DNA of 64,000 nucleotides, from assembly GCA_021432605.1 (NCBI GenBank), contig MU271156.1, forward strand, positions 372,001 through 436,000. Reading direction: 5' to 3'. Made by a program: the position numbers and the translations under genes. The DNA is from Coniochaeta sp. PMI_546 (Eukaryota; Ascomycota; Sordariomycetes; Coniochaetales; Coniochaetaceae). Shown piece by piece: positions 5,279 through 25,552 of the stretch. A model generated the notes under the pieces. The model did not search any database. It worked only from the letters and a program-made list of their open reading frames with translations, and had not been told where the DNA came from. Numbering within the stretch: the stretch's first letter is position 1; each line of letters opens with the position of its first letter.

Positions 5279-7447
5279 CTATTTCTTCGGCTTCTCCTGC
5301 TCAACGGCCCCATCATCAACATCATCCCCAATGACAACCTCCCTCTCGCTCCCATCCCCATGGAAAAGCGTCTCCTGGGCGCTCCACAACTCGCTATACA
5401 ACCCACCCCGGTCAATCAGCTCCTTATGCGTCCCGTGCTCTGCCACCCGCCCTTCCTTGAGCACAATGATCAGATCCGCGTCATATATCGTCCTCAGCCT
5501 GTGCGCAACAAACACGCTCGTCCGGTTCTTCTCCTTGAGGATGGAGTTAATCTCCCTCATAAGCGCCTGCTCGGTATGCGTGTCGAGCGCGCTCGTTGCC
5601 TCGTCAAAGAACAGCAGCGGCGGGTCCTTGAGCAACAGCCTGCTCACGGCCAACCTCTGCTTCTCGCCTCCGGAAATCATGAGACCACGCTCGCCGACCT
5701 TGGTCTGGTATCCGTCCTTCCACTTCTCGATGATGTGATGTATCCTCGCCCGCTGCGCTGCGGCGATGACCCTCTCCCTCGGCGCAGACAGGTCGCCGTA
5801 GCGGATGTTGTGCTCGACCGTGTCGTTGAACAGCGGCGTGTCCTGCGGCACGACGCCGATCGCTTTGCGCAAGGAATCCAGCGTCACGGTCCGGATATCC
5901 TGGTCATCGATCAGGATCCTCCCGTCGCCAACGTCGTAGTACCGGAACAGTAACCTGAGCAGGGTACTCTTTCCGCACCCGGAGGGTCCGACGATGGCGA
6001 CTTTCTTGCCGGCCGGTATGGTCAGCGACAGGTTCTTGAGGATAGGTTGGTCCGCGTGATATCCAAAGGTTACATCCTGGAACTTGATCTCCCCGCCTTT
6101 ACTCAAGACGAGAGGCTTCGCCCCCGGCTGCTCGGCGACAGAGACGTTCACCTTCTGCAGGTTGAAGAGCGTCTCCATGTCCAGCAGGCTCTGTCTCAGT
6201 TCGCGGTAGACGCTTCCGAGGAAGTTGAGCGGCACGCTCAGCTGGAACACGAGCTGGTTGATCATGACCAGATCTCCGACAGTCAGGGTTCCCTGCGCCA
6301 CGCCGTTGGCACCGAGATACATCATGGCGGTCAGCGCCGAGCTGAAGATGATATTCTGCCCGCTGTTCAAGAAGGCCAGACTCGTCCCCACCTTGATGGA
6401 GCTCTTCTCGTACTGCTTGAGCGCGGCGTCGTACCGGCTCACCTCGAACTTCTCGTTGTTGAAGTACTTCACCGCCTCGTAGTTGATCAGACTGTCCACC
6501 GCGACGGTAGAAGCCTTGTTATCCGCGGCGTTGGCCTGCCTCCTGAACTTGGTCCGCCAGGCGGTCGTCCAGATCGTGAAGGCCGTGTACGCCGTCATCG
6601 TCAGGGCGGTGATGGCGGCGAACTGCCCGCCGTACTGGTAGGTCAGGATGCCGCAGACCATGGTGATCTCGAGCGCCGTGGGGAGGATGTGGAAGACCAT
6701 GCTGGTCAGAAGGAAACTGATGCCCTTCGTGCCCCTGTCGATGGCCCGCGTGAGACCACCCGTCTGCTTACTCAGGTGGAACGCCAGATCCAGCCGCAGC
6801 AGGTGGTCGAACACGTTGCAGGCCACCTTCCGTATGGCTTTCTGCGCGACACTGGCGAAGACGGCATTCCGCAGCTCCTGGAACAGCGTCGCGCCTATCC
6901 TCGCCCCTCCGTAGGCCAGGATCATCGCCCCGGCTACGGTGGCCGCCGTGCCCCCTGTGGAAGCGATGTCGACGTTCATGCTGTCGACGATGGACTTGAA
7001 GTAGAAGGGCACCTGGACGTTGAGCACTTTGGCGCCAATGAGGAGGGCGACGGCCAGGCTGACGCGGAGCTTGGACGACAGGTCGTTTTTGGGCCACAGG
7101 TAGCGACTCATCTCGCGCATGATGGCCCAGTCGGCCTTGCGCTGGTCCGAGGTGGACTTTTCGAGGGTTGCGAGGGGGTCGGCGGAGGGGCTGCGGGTGT
7201 GCGTTGGGAGCTTCGGAGAGGATGGCGGAGGGCCATCTTTGGTGGTCGAGAGCGACGGTGAGTCGGCCTGAGCCGTGACGGAGCTGAGGGGCGCGTTTTT
7301 GTCATCGAGACGGAGGAAGGTGGTCGAGGTGAAGAAAATGCGGGAGGAGGAAGGTTGAGGAAGCCATGGCTGCCGCCACGAGGGGAGCTGGCTGTGGCCT
7401 GTCCGAAGCAGGACTGGGGCCCGATGCAGGCCTCTGAGGACGATCAT
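5279..7447 (-). CDS. ATM1: Mitochondrial ABC exporter of the Atm1/ABCB7 family
   Basis: One exon encodes 722 residues from the first ATG ([11 protein letters not shown]). A cleavable-looking, Arg/Ser-rich mitochondrial presequence of about 100 residues comes first. A six-helix half-transporter domain follows (about 130-420, including [19 protein letters not shown]). The nucleotide-binding domain has Walker [10 protein letters not shown] (near 491), signature ISGGEKQR (near 588) and Walker [13 protein letters not shown] (near 609). Atm1 homodimers in the inner mitochondrial membrane export a glutathione-linked sulfur or Fe-S species needed for cytosolic iron-sulfur assembly (established knowledge). 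All catalytic motifs are intact and length matches yeast Atm1. Confidence 0.95.
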
Positions 7448-8111
7448 CTTGGCTGACACGGCGGTGGCATCGTCTGAGCAGAGATCTAGCCAATTGACGG
7501 CTCGTGGTCAAGTGAAGGTGCAGGTATCACAAAGTAGTCTCTTCGTTGAGAACTGCTAGACAGGAGCTCCAGCTTAGGTGAGCGGGAAGCTTCGGGTTTA
7601 GTGCGAATCAGCGCCGATGATGCAATCATTCTCGGCCTGAGGCGTCAATTGTAACGCCGCTCTCGGCCATAGGTTAAATCTTCCTCAGTCAAGCTTTTAA
7701 TTGTGTAGTATATTTTTGGAAGCCGAGTCAACAAAGTCACCGCAGAGTCAGGGCAGACAGATAAAAAATCATATAATAAATTATGAATTATGAACCAAGA
7801 ATGGCAAACTTATTGGTAAATCTTCCGTATATTGTAGCCTCGGTCCAGAACAACCTGAGCATAATCCCATGCTTAAACCACCTATCTAACCTGCCCCTGA
7901 ACCAGGCCCGTGATCATCCGTTTATCTATCCAGCCTCAGATATATGTATAACCGGTGGTATAAGAGGATAAGAGAATGTGAGATCTAGTAATTAGGTCCG
8001 TATGTCGGATCATTGTTGCACAGAAAGAAGTTATCACCATTCCAATTACGCCTCTCACTCCCCGCCAATACAAGTAACTCAAAAAGAAACACCAAGCCAT
8101 TCAGCCCACAA
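7448..8111. other. Intergenic, AT-rich in part
   Basis: This holds the upstream region of ATM1 and the 3' flank of the propeller-WSC-oxidase gene. The part from about 7680 to 7830 is AT-rich. No gene is seen. Confidence 0.55.
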
Positions 8112-11100
8112 CTAATTCGTTGGCGGGTTCACCATAGCACCCCAGTTCGTGCTGGGGTCGGGCGGCGAGGTATTAGCCCCCGTCATGTTGAGCCACTGTC
8201 CGGTCTTGTAGTTGCCGGCGGCGTTGCCCTTGCGTGAGATCCCCAGCACATCACAGACCGTCCTGTGGCTGTTGGGGATATACGGTGCGCTCGCCTGCAG
8301 CACGTCCGGCGCCTCGATGAAGGTCGCCGTCAGTCCGGACTCGACGTGCCACTCAGTGTGGCAGTGGAACAGCCACACGCCAGGGTTGTTGGCCCGGAAC
8401 CTGAGCGTGGCGGAGCCCTCGGCGTACACAACGACTGTGTCGCGAGCCATCGGCACGGCTGGTGCAGAGTTCAGGCCAGGGAAGAGGGCGCCGCCGTCGG
8501 CGCGGTTGACGATCTGGAAGGTGTGTCCGTGCAAGTGGAAAGGGTGGGCGCGATCGTCGTGGTTATTGATATTGACTTCTACGATCGCGTTGTATGGGAT
8601 GACATATGGATTGCACGCGCGGCCGTAGATGGTCGGGTTCATGATCACGTCGGCCGGGGCGGTGAGCGCTGTGAACATGGTCGGCACCTTTTGTGCGACG
8701 TAGGTCTGTCCGTTGAACATGGAGCGCGTGGAGTCAGTGGCGTCTTGGTTAATCGACACGGTCAGATAGATCGTGAACGTTGGTGGGTCGAGCAGAGACT
8801 CCCCCTCAAAGGGTATAAGATCAGTGTCGTCCCATGGTTGCCGTTGGAGCGTGAATGGGTCCGGGAGGGCGGCTGCGGAGTTGTACACGAGCCATCCGGT
8901 AACCTGTCATTGGTCAGTACACGTCTACTGTAGGATGAAAGAGGAGAGAAGAGGGATAGATGGCCGAGACGCACCGAATTCACAGGCGGCTGGGCCATAT
9001 CACCGAACATGTTCGGATTCATCATAGCAACAACGGCGAAGTTCTGCGTAGCGCTGGCCTTGGCCTTGAGGAGCACCGTGTACCGCTGGGCGACGGCGAC
9101 ATACAGCTGGTTCGTGTCATATGGCATCGTCCAGACACCGTCGGCCTCGACAACAGTGACAGTATGCTGGTCGAATTGCAGGTATGTTCCAGCGATAGCA
9201 CCCATGTTAATGATGTGTATCATGTACGTCTTGCCCGCCGTAATCGGGAACTTCACATCCCGGGCATCGTTCATCAGAAGTGAATCGGGCACCGGCTCAG
9301 CGCCGCCAGTGGTGTCGCTGTTGTCCGGCGAAAGGTAGTAATTGATGAGTCTAGGAGCCTCTTGATGATAGGTATCCGCCAGTGTCATGGTGAATTCCGA
9401 ATCGGCCTTGTAGGGGGCGCACGGGTCTTTGATGATCAGCGCTCCACGTAGACCGTCGACGTACTGCCCGCCAATGTGAGCGTGCCACCAGTAGGTGCCA
9501 GTCTGGAGGAACCGGAACTGATACACGAAGCTCTGACCGGGTGAAATTGGGCACTGCGTGACGCCGACCGGACCGTCCTCGAACGTCGTGTTCTGCTGGA
9601 ATATGCCGTGGAAATGGAGCGACGTGCTCTGGTTGCCGAGCTGGTTGACAAGGTTGATCTTGACCGTGTCACCCAGATTACCGGTGATTGGCGGGTTGGG
9701 CCACTGCCCGTTGATGCCAATGAATGGTCGCGTGAACCCGTCAGGAGCTGCATTCACCCAACCTATGTTCCAGTTGTACGTGATGATCTTCCCGGCTGGG
9801 AGTGAGGGGGTGCAAGCTCGTGACGGGGTGACAGTTGACTGGGCGGATGTCGAAGTACTCGAAGTAGACGTCGTCGACGTCGACGTGCTTGAGGTCGAGG
9901 TGGTCAGCGGCGATGACGTGGAGGACGTGGAGGATGTGGAGGAAGTCGACGTGCTCGATGTGCTAGTCTCTATGGTGGACGAGTCTGTTGTTAGAGAGGT
10001 CTCACTAGTGGTAGAAGAGAAATCGCTGCTGGTAGAAGAGAAATCGCTGCTGGTAGAAGAAATGTCTGTGGTTGTCGACGAACTTGAGTCCGTGGTTGAA
10101 GAAGAAAAATCCGTACTTATCGTGGTTGACGACACCGACGACGAAGTGGAAGACGAGCTAGACGTGCTGGAAGACGAGCTCGAGGAAGAACTGGACGATG
10201 AGCTCGACACAACCGGGCGCTTGGTGTAAACGGACAAGCGCTTGCCGGCGCCGCAATACTGGTACAGATTGCCCTTGCAGGGGCTCTTGCAGTCGGATTG
10301 CGGCGCCGAGACTGACCCGGCGTTCAAGCTGTTTCCGCAGTAGCATTCACGCGCATACTCGGTGCCGAAGAACTGGTATGCGGCGCAGAAGCTGGCGCAA
10401 GCCTCGAGGGTCATCGTGTCTGCGGCAAACGACTTCAGGCTGAGGGCGCGGCCGGTGGTAGCTTCGGTGTAGCATCCGTAGTAGATCCAATCAGTGCCGA
10501 TCGTAGCAGGCTGGGTTAGCGTTGGTGCGGCCGAGCTCGTGGTGCTGGAGCTTGTGGAGCTGGAGGAGCTCGTGGTGCTGGAGCTCGTGATCGTGCTCGA
10601 CGTGCTGGATGAGCTGGATGTAATCGACGACGTAGACGTCGACGAAGTGGTTGAAGAAACGCTGGTTGAAGAGGTAGTCGAGGACGACGACGACGAAGTT
10701 GAAGAGACGCTCGAGGTGGACGAACTGGATGAAGTCGTAGAGCTGCTCGAGGAGCTCGTCGTGGAGCTGGAGGACGAAGTGGAGGTTGTTGTCGTGGAGC
10801 TCGAAGACGAAGTTGTTGTCCTCGTGCTGCTGCTCGACGAAGTCGGGCTGGTCGAGCTGCCAGTGGTGGTAGCTGGTCTGGTCCCGATGGCGGTGATCTT
10901 CGCATTAGCCATCACATAAACTCGGCTGTTGCCGAACACTGGTCGCTGGTTCTTCATCAGCCTGCCTGTATTGACCGGCAGTGTGATCTGCTGCAAGACT
11001 CCGTTCACGGGCACGGCCTTGTACGCAACGAGGCCGTTGTTGACGTCGACCATCCAAACGATTCCCGTCCCTGGCTGGCCGTTCAAAGTGGTCACGACGG

Positions 11101-12755
11101 GAACGCCCTTGGCAGCAAAAGTCAGAGATGTTTGCCCGGCCAGTGTGAAAAATGGCTTTCCGTTCGAGCCAAGGCCGAAGCTGTAGGCGTACAAGGAGTT
11201 GGATGTTGGACAGAGGTAGATGTAGCCGCCTTCGAGGGGATAGCTTGCCGCACCACTGAAGAACGACGCAACACCTGTGAACTGGTCGATCTTCTGAAGA
11301 ACGCCATCAGTGCCGCCAGACCCCATCCTGAATCCTCCGAGGTTATTGGCGTCCAGGATGAAAATCTGGCCGGACTTGTGCATGGCCACAAGCACCTGTG
11401 TGACCCCACCGCCAGAGAAGTAAGGATCAAGCAGACTCAGCCCAGAAGATCCAAAATCACGATCCCCTCCGTTCATGTTGTCAAAATCAAACGGCTGGAA
11501 ATAATCTAATTGAGTGAGGTTTCCGGTGTTGGGGTTGACCCCCCAGGCGGATACAGCTTGCATGAGGGAGCTGATGGGGACTTTCCCGCTGGCAGGTGTG
11601 GTGCCACTGTTCACGCCGGGCCCTCCTTTGCCGTTGCTGCAGGTTCATGTCAGCTCGCTTCTTGAGTCAACCGCATGTTCACGAAAGCGTTACATACCCA
11701 GTCACAACAAAGACACGGTTGGTAGCCTCGTCGACCGCAGGGGGCTGACCAGACATCCAGATACCAGCCTTGCCTCCACCTTCAACGGTAATATCCAGAG
11801 ACTGTGGGGACGGGGCTCCAGGTGCAGCTTGCATAGCCTGCATGTTCGTGATGCCAACGCCAGTCGTCTTACTAACCGTCATCAAGTACCCGCTATCAAG
11901 AAATATGGATCAGTACTTTTCTAGACAACCGGGAGGTCATTGGGGACCAACTTACGTGTAGTTAAAGTTGTCGCAGTGACCACCAAACGGTAGCACAATG
12001 GTATTCCCCAGCTGCGTTATGGCTGATCGCTGGAGGAGCGTTCCGGCGACAAAGTAACGGCTGAGATCGTTGTTGGCCGGCTTGTTTTCGAGGATGTACG
12101 GCCAACCGGGAATATCCGTCAACGTCGGCAGCGTCACGGCGTAGAGCTTATATTGGCCTATGCGAATTGGTTACTTTCACTCTCTGACTTCAGAGGAAGC
12201 ACTCGTACTAACCACTGATAGTGTTGATCGGCCCTGTTTGGCCGCCCTTGTAGCCTTTTGAGGTGAAGTACATGATATTAGTATTCTTGTCGATGACTGG
12301 CGTGGCCGTGATACCAATATTGCCCGGGATATCACCACAGTTGGCATCGGTTGACGAGAAGGGCGGGTCGAGTGTGCGTTGGGCGATGAGAGTGCCGGTA
12401 ATGCCATCCCACACTCTGACAATGTTAAGATTCGACACTACAATGACCAGTTCGTTGCCACCACCCGGAGGTGTCCAGACAAGCGGCTTCGCATGGACCA
12501 ACTCGCCCTGTGTCGACAGTAATTGACCTGTCCATTGCGCCGTCCACGAACTGATTTTGGCAGGGTCGATAGGGTGATTGGGCAGATAGCCCGATTGCGC
12601 TGAATCCTAGTGAACGAGTAAGTCATGAGCTTGGAACTTGAGTTCACGAGGTTACCATGACCTACGGCATCTTGCAGTGTATCTGTCGACACCCAGGACC
12701 GCACGAGAGATGGCAGCAAGGCGGCTGCCACTCCGGCAAGTGTTGACAGCCTCAT
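8112..12755 (-). CDS. Secreted PQQ-type propeller / WSC / multicopper oxidase fusion
   Basis: Six exons (12656-12755, 12213-12599, 11956-12157, 11698-11892, 8975-11636, 8112-8903) give 1445 residues; each junction is canonical GT-AG and keeps frame. Residues 1-20 look like a signal peptide. About 25-545 form a quinoprotein-like beta-propeller (NIGITATPVIDKN, GGKAGIWMSGQ, FGGHCDNFNYTG, DRDFGSSGLSLLDP). A Ser/Thr linker (550-670) leads to a WSC domain (674-770; YYGCYTE, ECYCGN, YQYCGAG), a second Ser/Thr linker, and a multicopper oxidase (about 901-1445). The oxidase has all four copper motifs: HFHG, WWHAH, HPFHLHGH and HCHTEWHVESGL. The GAEPVP stretch near 1072 resembles the Fet3 region carrying the iron-site glutamate. 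No C-terminal membrane helix is present, so it should be secreted or wall-bound through WSC. Substrate is unknown: laccase-like or ferroxidase-like. Confidence 0.88.
9818..10210 (-). repeat. Ser/Thr-rich linker with short tandem repeats
   Basis: This stretch codes for the second Ser/Thr linker of the fusion gene. It includes a perfect unit of about 24 bases (GCTGGTAGAAGAGAAATC core) repeated around 10010-10070. It should be heavily O-mannosylated and form an extended spacer. Confidence 0.7.
10500..10872 (-). repeat. Ser/Thr-rich linker between propeller and WSC
   Basis: Coding sequence of low complexity, almost only serine and threonine codons, joins the propeller to the WSC domain. Long open frames on the opposite strand here are shadows of this composition. 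Confidence 0.7.
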
Positions 12756-18852: not shown

Positions 18853-19895
18853 TACCAACAGCAACAACAGCAACAGCAGCAACAGCAGCAACAGCAGCAA
18901 CAGCAGCAACAGCAGCAACAGCAGCAACAGCAGCAACAGCAGCAACAGCAGCAACAGCAGCAACANNNNNNNNNNNNNNNNNNNNNNNNNNNNNNNNNNN
19001 NNNNNNNNNNNNNNNNNNNNNNNNNNNNNNNNNNNNNNNNNNNNNNNNNNNNNNNNNNNNNNNNNNNNNNNNNNNNNNNNNNNNNNNNNNNNNNNNNNNN
19101 NNNNNNNNNNNNNNNNNNNNNNNNNNNNNNNNNNNNNNNNNNNNNNNNNNNNNNNNNNNNNNNNNNNNNNNNNNNNNNNNNNNNNNNNNNNNNNNNNNNN
19201 NNNNNNNNNNNNNNNNNNNNNNNNNNNNNNNNNNNNNNNNNNNNNNNNNNNNNNNNNNNNNNNNNNNNNNNNNNNNNNNNNNNNNNNNNNNNNNNNNNNN
19301 NNNNNNNNNNNNNNNNNNNNNNNNNNNNNNNNNNNNNNNNNNNNNNNNNNNNNNNNNNNNNNNNNNNNNNNNNNNNNNNNNNNNNNNNNNNNNNNNNNNN
19401 NNNNNNNNNNNNNNNNNNNNNNNNNNNNNNNNNNNNNNNNNNNNNNNNNNNNNNNNNNNNNNNNNNNNNNNNNNNNNNNNNNNNNNNNNNNNNNNNNNNN
19501 NNNNNNNNNNNNNNNNNNNNNNNNNNNNNNNNNNNNNNNNNNNNNNNNNNNNNNNNNNNNNNNNNNNNNNNNNNNNNNNNNNNNNNNNNNNNNNNNNNNN
19601 NNNNNNNNNNNNNNNNNNNNNNNNNNNNNNNNNNNNNNNNNNNNNNNNNNNNNNNNNNNNNNNNNNNNNNNNNNNNNNNNNNNNNNNNNNNNNNNNNNNN
19701 NNNNNNNNNNNNNNNNNNNNNNNNNNNNNNNNNNNNNNNNNNNNNNNNNNNNNNNNNNNNNNNNNNNNNNNNNNNGAGAAGGAGAAGGAGAAGGAGAAGG
19801 AGAAGGAGAAGGAGAAGGAGAAGGAGAAGGAGAAGGAGAAGGAGAAGGAGAAGGAGAAGGCCGCCGACGGCAACGACCACATGGTGGTCGACTGA
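18853..19895 (+). CDS. Possible low-complexity protein (poly-Q ... Glu-Lys) split by the gap
   Basis: This is a tentative gene. Left of the gap a poly-glutamine exon could begin after the intron-like 3' end at 18852. Right of the gap a Glu-Lys repeat ends in AADGNDHMVVD and a stop at 19895. Poly-Q and charged tails are common in fungal transcription and signalling proteins, but no conserved domain is visible, and nothing proves that the two sides share one gene. An upstream start (MEYTTSLMLMDDLLLDGPLF, from 18757) closes at a TAA before the repeat and has no internal GT donor. Either repeat may be non-coding. Confidence 0.25.
18856..18965 (+). repeat. CAACAGCAG microsatellite
   Basis: About twelve copies of the 9-base unit CAACAGCAG run into the assembly gap. 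In one plus frame it encodes uninterrupted glutamine. That frame is closed by a TAG immediately upstream, but the preceding TGCTGACTAAGCGATATGATAG is a good intron 3' end, so a poly-Q exon could start at 18853. Confidence 0.85.
18966..19775. other. Assembly gap (810 N)
   Basis: A run of 810 undetermined bases. Different simple repeats flank the two sides, so the gap is not one collapsed repeat. Its true size is unknown. Confidence 0.98.
19776..19859 (+). repeat. GAGAAG hexanucleotide repeat
   Basis: Fourteen copies of GAGAAG follow the gap. In one plus frame they encode alternating Glu-Lys and lead to AADGNDHMVVD and a TGA at 19893-19895. Confidence 0.9.
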
Positions 19896-23917: not shown

Positions 23918-25552
23918 ATGTTTGTTAGGAACGGTGCCACTCTGGTGGCTGCTGTGGCCCTGCTCGCATCGGTTGATGCCAAGCGTCAGCAGCTCCATGA
24001 GCGAGGCACTCGATGCAACGGTGACAACCTCCTGAACCGCTTCAGGGATCATCGGTATTCCGATGCTGCCATCAGCTTCTGCCAGACCTACGTCAACTCC
24101 GTGACCTATTCGGTCGTGACTGTTTCCACTGACGAGGCCCAGTAAGTTTTCCGTTCTCTGCAGATTTAGGAGCCTCTCTAACATGTCTCCAGCGTGTCCT
24201 CCCCAGTCACAACCTACAGCACGGCTTATCCTTCGCCGCTCCTGACGTCGTCTTATCCAGCGTCCCGTCTGTCCAGTGCCTGCAGCTGCGTGACTCCGTC
24301 GGTAGTTACAGCTGTTGTGACGGAGTACGTCGCCAGCTCGACGTCGACTGCCTCAGATGACGCTGCCACCACCACATCGGAAGATTCTTCCACGACAACT
24401 GACGATTCTTCCACGACAACTGACGATTCTTCTACAACGAGCACTGCTGATCCCACGACTTCCACGGATGCTGCAACAACATCTACAGATGATTCATCCA
24501 CGACCACCACGGAAGATCCATCAACCACCACAACTGAGGACCCGTCGACCACCAGCACTGATGACTCCTCGACAACTACTGAAGACCCTTCCACCACTGC
24601 CACCGAGGATCCTTCCACTACTACCACCGAGGATTCATCCACCACCACCACCGATGATCCTTCCACTACTACTACCGAGGATTCGTCCACTACCACCGAG
24701 GATCCGTCCACCACCACCACCGAGGATCCTTCCACTACTACCACCGAGGATTCGACCACTACCACCGAGGATCCGACCACTACCACCGAGGACCCTTCCA
24801 CTACTACCACCGAGGACCCTTCCACTACTACCACCGAGGATTCGTCCACTACCACCGAGGACCCTTCGACCACCACCACGGATCCAGCGACCACCGCCAC
24901 CGACGACCCTTCAACCACCACCACGGATCCAGCGACCACCACAACTGATGCTCCCGCCGGCCCCACCTCCCTCGGCTGCTACGTGGAAGGCTCCGGCGGC
25001 CGCGCCCTGAAGAACCTCATCCTCGCGGAGGACACCCTCACCATCGAGGCGTGCGCCGCAGCATGCACCAGCTACGGCTTTTTTGGCGTCGAATACGGAC
25101 GGGAATGTTGGTGTGATGACGTGATCGAGCCCACCGCCTTCGTGTCTCCCGACCCCAGCGTTTGCAACATGGCCTGCAAGGGCGACGTCACCGAGATCTG
25201 CGGCGGCAGCTCGACCATCAACATCTACGGCGCTGCGTCCGCCGCTGGCACGACCCCGACCGAGAGCCCGTACACCTTCACCGGCTGCTTTGCCGAGCCC
25301 GCGGGCGCTCGCGCGCTGCCGCAGCTGTATGCCTCCACCAAGATGACGATCGAGCTGTGCCACCTCGACTGCTCCCTGGCCGGGTACTCCTACGCCGGTT
25401 TGGAGTACAGCACCGAGTGTTGGTGCGGTAACTCGATTCCTGACCTGGCTCCGCTCGGACCGGAGTCCTGCAACGCTGCTTGTGCCGGAGACGCCACCGA
25501 GACGTGCGGCGGCAGCAATGCGCTCCAGCTCTACACCGTCACGGCGAACTAG
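23918..25552 (+). CDS. Secreted protein with two WSC domains and a Thr-rich stalk
   Basis: Two exons (23918-24141, 24193-25552; intron GTAAGT..CTCCAG) give 527 residues. Residues 1-21 form a signal peptide ending SVDAKRQ. A short cysteine-containing region (CNGDNLLNRF, CSCVTPSVVTAVVTEYV) follows. Residues about 145-325 are a Thr/Ser/Asp/Glu/Pro stalk of repeated TTTEDPS units. Two WSC domains end the protein (about 332-424 and 430-527), each with the usual cysteines (GCYVEG, ECWCDD, EICGGSS; GCFAEP, ECWCGN, ETCGGSN). WSC domains bind fungal wall glycans (established knowledge). There is no C-terminal membrane helix, so it is released or wall-held and is not a Wsc1-type sensor. Its first WSC resembles the one in the oxidase fusion. 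Confidence 0.9.
24340..24950 (+). repeat. TTTEDPS-encoding tandem repeat
   Basis: Around two dozen imperfect 18-24 base units (core ACCACCGAGGATCCTTCC) code for the stalk of the double-WSC protein. The repeat is prone to copy-number change. The long minus-strand frame across it is a shadow. Confidence 0.8.

Follow-up and report, generated by a model that had tools for sequence, protein, structure and literature searches.

A predicted secreted protein of Coniochaeta sp. PMI_546 carries a quinoprotein-like propeller and a Fet3-lineage multicopper oxidase in one chain

Our analysis concerns one gene in the window, a 64,000-nucleotide stretch of contig MU271156.1 of the ascomycete Coniochaeta sp. 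PMI_546. Spliced translation gives a single gene of six exons at 8112-12755 on the minus strand. Its product of 1444 amino acids carries a quinoprotein-like propeller, a WSC domain and a Fet3-lineage multicopper oxidase, linked by two serine/threonine (Ser/Thr) stalks (Table 1). All five introns are of the GT-AG type (59, 55, 63, 61 and 71 nt), and the spliced coding sequence of 4335 nt consists of 1444 codons and a stop, with no internal stop. The frame is thus open throughout, and the six-exon model that had been spliced by hand in an earlier, sequence-only reading of the locus is correct. Exon 5 is an uninterrupted reading frame that begins inside the propeller and runs through the first stalk, the WSC domain and the second stalk into the oxidase. 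The same reading had proposed the order of the domains, and this was confirmed by Pfam matches to the WSC and three Cu-oxidase domains and by a model-based assignment of the propeller. The secreted, stalked design that it described also stands, given a signal peptide recognized by eye and two Ser/Thr stalks in the translation. A hydrophobic N-terminus is shared by those fused homologues described below that are complete at that end; P0009 is N-terminally incomplete.

Table 1. Features of the propeller-oxidase gene, in window positions
Feature	Position	Strand	Basis and remarks
Exon 1	12755-12666	-	spliced translation
Exon 2	12606-12213	-	spliced translation
Exon 3	12157-11956	-	spliced translation
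Exon 4	11892-11698	-	spliced translation
Exon 5	11636-8975	-	spliced translation
Exon 6	8903-8112	-	spliced translation
Signal peptide, aa 1-20, MRLSTLAGVAAALLPSLVRS	12696..12755	-	start of exon 1 (12666-12755); translation, by eye
Quinoprotein-like eight-bladed propeller, aa 31-546	10880..12606	-	gene model; fold of homologue P0122; alignment to pyrroloquinoline quinone (PQQ) dehydrogenases
Introns inside the propeller (exons 2-5)	12212-12158, 11955-11893, 11697-11637	-	gene model
First Ser/Thr stalk, aa ~550-668	10514..10870	-	translation
WSC domain, aa 679-757, eight cysteines	10247..10483	-	Pfam PF01822, 72 bits
Second Ser/Thr stalk, aa ~765-896	9830..10225	-	translation; short tandem repeats present
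Fet3-lineage multicopper oxidase, aa 897-1444	8115..9829	-	end of exon 5 and exon 6, intron 8974-8904; Pfam, Fet3 the best PDB match
Cu-oxidase_3	9422-9766	-	Pfam
Cu-oxidase	9017-9397	-	Pfam
Cu-oxidase_2	8304-8699	-	Pfam
Stop codon	8112..8114	-	translation

Homologues were collected for the whole protein (120 listed of 221), the propeller (120 of 145) and the oxidase (120 of 3041), and their domain content was taken from precomputed Pfam assignments. Nine of the 120 listed whole-protein homologues (P0001-P0009) are each predicted as a single chain in which the propeller precedes all three Cu-oxidase domains; their sources are Acephala, Pleurostoma, Podospora didyma, Apodospora, Drepanopeziza, Rhynchosporium and Cadophora, with two further proteins. 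A second fused gene was found in the same genome on contig C16 (L036, G000:C16:41500-48300; 5745 down to about 1070). Spliced alignment to P0005 gave this paralogue 16 introns and an open product of 1198 amino acids with a signal peptide, propeller, Ser/Thr stalk and oxidase, without a WSC domain. Some splice sites of that model are uncertain: 76 single-intron joins across the stalk keep the frame open, so that no one intron stands out there, and close to the copper motif HAHL the model lacks GGQYI, which points to an imperfect splice. The paralogue is 59% identical to the window protein over 1195 positions and shares the position and phase of four of the five window-gene introns. Based on the nine fused homologues and on a paralogue with the same order and these four introns, the gene fusion is not an artefact of assembly or splicing.

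Nor are the homologues always two separate genes. Besides the nine single predicted chains, the 21 nearest 'oxidase-only' models (P0241-P0262, excluding P0255) include 11 that start with remnants of the fusion, namely the propeller tail (three), a Ser/Thr stalk without a signal peptide (seven) or a piece of the WSC domain (one), and so look like split gene models. Nine others start at or inside the oxidase and are uninformative, and one is ambiguous. In four species, a propeller-only and an oxidase-only model lie on contigs of equal size (P0124/P0252, P0125/P0256, P0128/P0259 and P0138/P0248). These pairs also look like split models, though they may be true neighbouring genes. An oxidase tree was built from 71 of 129 cut rows, with a midpoint root for drawing only; P0262 was too short for the 129, and the placement of P0255 is weak (85/31). 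In it, 33 of the 71 rows fall into one group (support 100/99), made up of the ten fused oxidases, 20 fragments and three further rows. A tree of 67 chosen propeller rows, made by a quick method and with eight long branches flagged, gathers the 11 fused propellers, without exception, in a single 24-row group (Shimodaira-Hasegawa-like approximate likelihood ratio test, 99) that also includes 11 propeller-only and two WSC-only models. In these sequence comparisons, the propeller and oxidase modules have been inherited together.

The N-terminal module has the fold of an eight-bladed quinoprotein-like propeller, as judged from an AlphaFold2 model of its homologue P0122 (predicted local distance difference test (pLDDT) 88.6, predicted template modelling score 0.89); the blade count comes from the strands and best matches of that model. 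Foldseek ranked PQQ alcohol dehydrogenases at the top for the P0122 model, with a best E of 4.1e-15. The window propeller itself has no match among PDB sequences even at E 10 and nothing significant in NCBIfam. The six-bladed sorbosone/glucose dehydrogenase fold of auxiliary-activity family AA12 was considered for this module and was ruled out, because the P0122 model resembles eight-bladed propellers and no Pfam match appears at E 10.

For the putative cofactor site, a family profile was aligned with hhalign to a second profile, built from E. coli Gcd together with eight proteins annotated as PQQ dehydrogenases. The family profile holds 136 members (the query and 135 of 241 matched rows), 106 rows having been excluded because they covered no more than 480 of 548 positions or had an over-long span. 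The best local alignment is co-linear over aa 31-392, with a score of 73.8, a probability of 95.3% and, for this single comparison, an E of 2.3e-8; the highest score among 60 column shuffles was 24.7, and the reversed profile scored 15.9. It pairs W274, D352, K381 and C120 of the window protein with W404, D466, K493 and C265 of Gcd. The letters at Gcd W404, D466 and K493 were checked in the sequence, and we take these residues to be the PQQ-stacking Trp, the catalytic Asp and the Lys (or Arg) at the quinone. From sequence alone, W274, D352 and K381 would be the corresponding Trp, Asp and Lys of an eight-bladed PQQ dehydrogenase. Conservation across the 136 members is high: W274 is kept in 135, D354 in 134, N295 in 132, D352 in 131 and K381 in 130, and C120 and C223 are invariant. 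N295 is, by eye, a candidate for the metal ligand N261 of methanol dehydrogenase, whose ligands are E177 and N261. These seven residues are all present in six of six bacterial-like members and in all ten fused proteins, bar one gap at N295. The remote propeller relatives P0204-P0240 are apparently bacterial; many have immunoglobulin (Ig) I-set domains, and some are labelled PQQ-like. The conserved Trp, Asp and Lys are present in the five of them examined (P0219, P0223, P0224, P0230 and P0237) and in P0197, and the bacterial-like relatives are 25-32% identical. The window propeller has no vicinal Cys-Cys pair; the pair is also absent at that place in Gcd and is present in the four methanol/ethanol-type rows.

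Together with the fold, this alignment supports the earlier description of the propeller as dehydrogenase-like. That it uses PQQ or another quinone we regard as about an even chance. H222 occurs in 130 family members, and with the invariant C120 and C223 a disulfide or metal site near the pocket is possible. Elsewhere in the genome, on contig C4 (686462-687445, minus strand; 696731-698272, plus strand), a strong glucose/sorbosone dehydrogenase match (PF07995, 392 bits) lies about 9 kb from a propeller-WSC gene. More than one enzyme of this genome may depend on PQQ.

The C-terminal module is a multicopper oxidase. All three Cu-oxidase domains (PF07732, PF00394 and PF07731) lie above the Pfam cut-off, at 131.7, 103.5 and 126.5 bits, and a model of P0241, which is 93% identical to the window oxidase, has a pLDDT of 91.2. 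The ten His and one Cys ligands of a four-copper site (H968, H970, H1012, H1014, H1301, H1304, H1306, H1361, C1362, H1363 and H1367), assigned by the copper-ligand motifs, are all present in the gene and in the C16 paralogue, in agreement with the complete site claimed earlier. The closest solved structure is Fet3p (PDB 1zpu; CAZy AA1_2). E1074 and D1297 correspond to Fet3 E185 and D409, and equivalents of both occur in all ten fused oxidases and all 20 fragments. At the D283 column the window protein has G1172, next to D1173, and relatives are mixed; the full Fet3 acidic triad is thus incomplete. The roles of E185, D283 and D409 as acidic Fe(II) residues of Fet3 are treated in sections of PMC3129051. 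No C-terminal membrane span was found in P0001-P0009 by hydropathy or in the window protein by eye, and 75 of 99 other oxidases compared have a C-terminal hydrophobic stretch. Anchored Fet3 proteins form a separate group in the oxidase tree (25 rows, 100/99). There is no Ftr1 gene alongside the fusion; the genome's Ftr1 matches are on contigs C2 and C6, and a Fet3-like gene adjoins the C6 one. Adjacency of Fet3 and Ftr1 genes is described as common and not universal in the sections of PMC3129051 that deal with it. By its sequence relationships, the oxidase belongs to the Fet3 lineage and not to the laccase type, with two of the three ferroxidase residues and no membrane anchor.

The WSC domain is full length (72 bits in Pfam, cut-off 27.8), with eight Cys counted by eye. 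Domains of this kind bind xylan and chitin or beta-1,3-glucan, according to a passage of PMC8400822 citing Oide 2019. The sequence-only reading had proposed a tether to a wall glycan; such a tether may exist in the window protein but is not a general feature, since only five of ten fused proteins carry a WSC domain (the window protein, P0001, P0006, P0008 and P0009) and the C16 paralogue does not. Of the 120 listed homologues, 111 have the propeller and no oxidase, and 109 of those have a precomputed WSC match. Propellers are encoded at five loci of the genome itself; an oxidase follows at two of them, and the other three, on C7, C4 and C9, have WSC matches. In the two fused proteins scanned, P0001 (Acephala) and P0006 (Drepanopeziza), weak HYDIN-like Ig matches below the cut-off lie between the propeller and the WSC domain, and a similar Ig-type match is listed for the propeller relative P0197 from Streptomyces. 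A frame at 24182-25552 on the plus strand of the window, some 11 kb away from the fusion gene, contains two WSC domains and a long tandem repeat (24497-24942).

We tentatively propose, at somewhat less than an even chance, that the protein is a secreted dehydrogenase-oxidase of the wall or matrix in which copper and O2 receive the electrons of an alcohol or sugar. With PQQ or a related quinone and a metal ion bound, the propeller would oxidize an alcohol or sugar that comes from the cell wall or from decaying plant material. Electrons would then reach the type 1 copper of the oxidase, either directly or by way of a small carrier, for example Fe(III)/Fe(II) or a phenol, and the copper oxidase would reduce O2 to water. 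Iron is a possible carrier because of the acidic Fe(II) pocket of the oxidase. The stalks may provide reach, and the WSC domain, where present, may anchor the protein on wall glucan, chitin or xylan. In CcPDH, a fungal PQQ dehydrogenase, an attached redox (cytochrome) domain is required to pass on electrons, as stated in parts of PMC5960967. If the same logic applies here, the attached copper oxidase would make O2 the final acceptor, forming water.

Several observations weigh against this proposal. The window propeller lacks any Pfam match, and PQQ_2 is matched by only 8 of 51 scanned relatives. The profile alignment extends over about five of eight blades at 15% identity, and D354 and N355, the metal-ligand dyad of Gcd, are shifted by one column relative to D224-N225, which are kept in 107 and 20 of the 136 family members. 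When the family was compared with single sequences by hhalign, Gcd reached a probability of 2.7% in a different register and BamB 1.6%, and the -glob mode gave a different register again. Long flexible stalks offer no fixed electron path, and the portions of PMC6881810 and PMC4133262 on PQQ synthesis report it for prokaryotes only. The fold also suits other proteins, since BamB and YxaL equal or exceed the dehydrogenases by Z: for the P0122 model, designed propellers, YxaL and BamB take the top rows, and dehydrogenases reach a Z of about 27 across roughly 400 residues. The fold alone therefore cannot separate an enzyme from a scaffold. Nearly as likely, then, is a BamB-like propeller without redox chemistry that acts as a binding scaffold and, with the WSC domain where present, positions a secreted Fet3-lineage ferroxidase or phenol oxidase in the wall; its role would be to control Fe(II), and hence Fenton chemistry, or to couple phenols and pigments. 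The frequent occurrence of the propeller without an oxidase and with WSC is what would be expected of a wall-protein module, and the consistent presence of E185 and D409 equivalents fits such an oxidase. However, fungal and bacterial members that are 25-32% identical share a Trp, an Asp and a Lys at catalytic positions, which is unusual for a scaffold. Compared as a single sequence and not as a profile, BamB gave no match to the family, but neither did the single Gcd sequence.

The remaining alternatives are less probable. A secreted Abr1-type, laccase-like oxidase that makes wall pigment, with the propeller as a passenger, is improbable. Some near relatives, such as P0243 and P0246, are named 'conidial pigment biosynthesis oxidase Abr1/brown 1', and a section of PMC3129051 holds that anchor-less oxidases are thought to derive from ferroxidases, one with laccase activity. 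Abr1, however, keeps E185 alone in the portions of PMC3129051 and PMC7345259 that cover it, whereas both E185 and D409 are kept here. The oxidase is also still joined to the propeller in most members of its group that are informative, and no pigment cluster appears among the ten long frames scanned in the window. A Fet3 serving high-affinity iron uptake with an Ftr1 permease is very improbable: the match to the Fet3p structure favours it, but the membrane span is lacking, the genome's Fet3-Ftr1 pair sits on contig C6, the D283 column is a Gly and the anchored Fet3 proteins group apart. Least credible is that two adjacent genes were wrongly merged by the hand splice. The paired propeller-only and oxidase-only models of four species fit a merger, but exon 5 is open across the parts, nine single-chain models come from other genomes or metagenomes, the C16 paralogue has the same join and no second signal peptide precedes the oxidase part. 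On the strength of that exon, the fused homologues and the paralogue, the single-gene reading was upheld.

The dehydrogenase-oxidase proposal also has a wider form. In it, the protein would be the first fungal dehydrogenase of the eight-bladed PQQ (or other quinone) type and would come with its own terminal oxidase, so that, within one chain, sugar or alcohol oxidation would be coupled to a Fet3-type copper enzyme that turns O2 into water and makes no H2O2. Its propeller family, which is widespread in WSC wall proteins and has no matching Pfam model, would then be a new auxiliary-activity family. We consider this wider form unlikely. If the propeller is active, fungi would have a peroxide-free, oxygen-reducing dehydrogenase-oxidase, and a large propeller family of WSC wall proteins, mostly unnamed by Pfam scans in the members tested, would gain a function.

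Two other features of the window can be mentioned. The next long frame downstream on the same strand (5279-7507, minus) encodes an ABC transporter (ABC_membrane, ABC_tran), which presumably resembles mitochondrial Atm1; its proximity to a gene of the iron-oxidase type may be chance. At 18966-19775, 810 N lie between (CAGCAACAG)n and (GAGAAG)n arrays. Because of this gap, the long open frames seen there in several frames are probably an artefact.

Compared with known systems, each module has clear relatives. Unlike Fet3p of yeast, the window protein has no membrane anchor, does not keep the D283 column, has no adjacent Ftr1 and places its oxidase behind a propeller and stalks. It is similar to the eight-bladed PQQ dehydrogenases (E. 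coli Gcd and the methanol/ethanol dehydrogenases) in its eight-bladed fold, profile register and cofactor-site Trp, Asp and Lys. It differs from them in an identity of about 15%, the lack of a PQQ profile match to the window sequence and an uncertain metal dyad, and in being eukaryotic, secreted and fused to an oxidase. In E. coli K-12 (L041 1-3226), the copper oxidase gene cueO adjoins the quinoprotein gene gcd; this is the same pair of enzyme types and probably a coincidence. BamB is a non-enzymatic scaffold. It and YxaL share the quinoprotein-like propeller fold with high Z, whereas the window family keeps the cofactor-site residues. Glyoxal oxidases (AA5_1) use copper-radical chemistry that yields H2O2. 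These copper radical oxidases are alike in being copper oxidases with N-terminal WSC domains, as described in parts of PMC3620520 and PMC8400822, but they have an unrelated catalytic fold and no quinoprotein-like partner is described there.

CcPDH, a PQQ pyranose dehydrogenase with the architecture AA8-AA12-CBM1, is also fungal and secreted, and it likewise combines dehydrogenase, electron-accepting and carbohydrate-binding domains, according to sections of PMC4133262 and PMC5960967. In contrast, CcPDH is six-bladed and uses cytochrome b, whereas the window protein has eight blades and a copper oxidase able to reduce O2. A passage of PMC13384848 names just one further eukaryotic PQQ enzyme of demonstrated activity, the six-bladed CcPDH; this is not exact, since a second fungal AA12 enzyme, from Trichoderma reesei, is reported in part of PMC6881810. 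As the fungal PQQ enzymes met in these portions of the literature are AA12 (CcPDH, PMC4133262; T. reesei, PMC6881810), an eight-bladed one would be new. Searches of an open-access library gave no description of a propeller and oxidase in one chain. In conclusion, both modules come from known superfamilies, the Fet3-lineage oxidases and the quinoprotein-like propellers, and it is their combination that is new as far as we have found.

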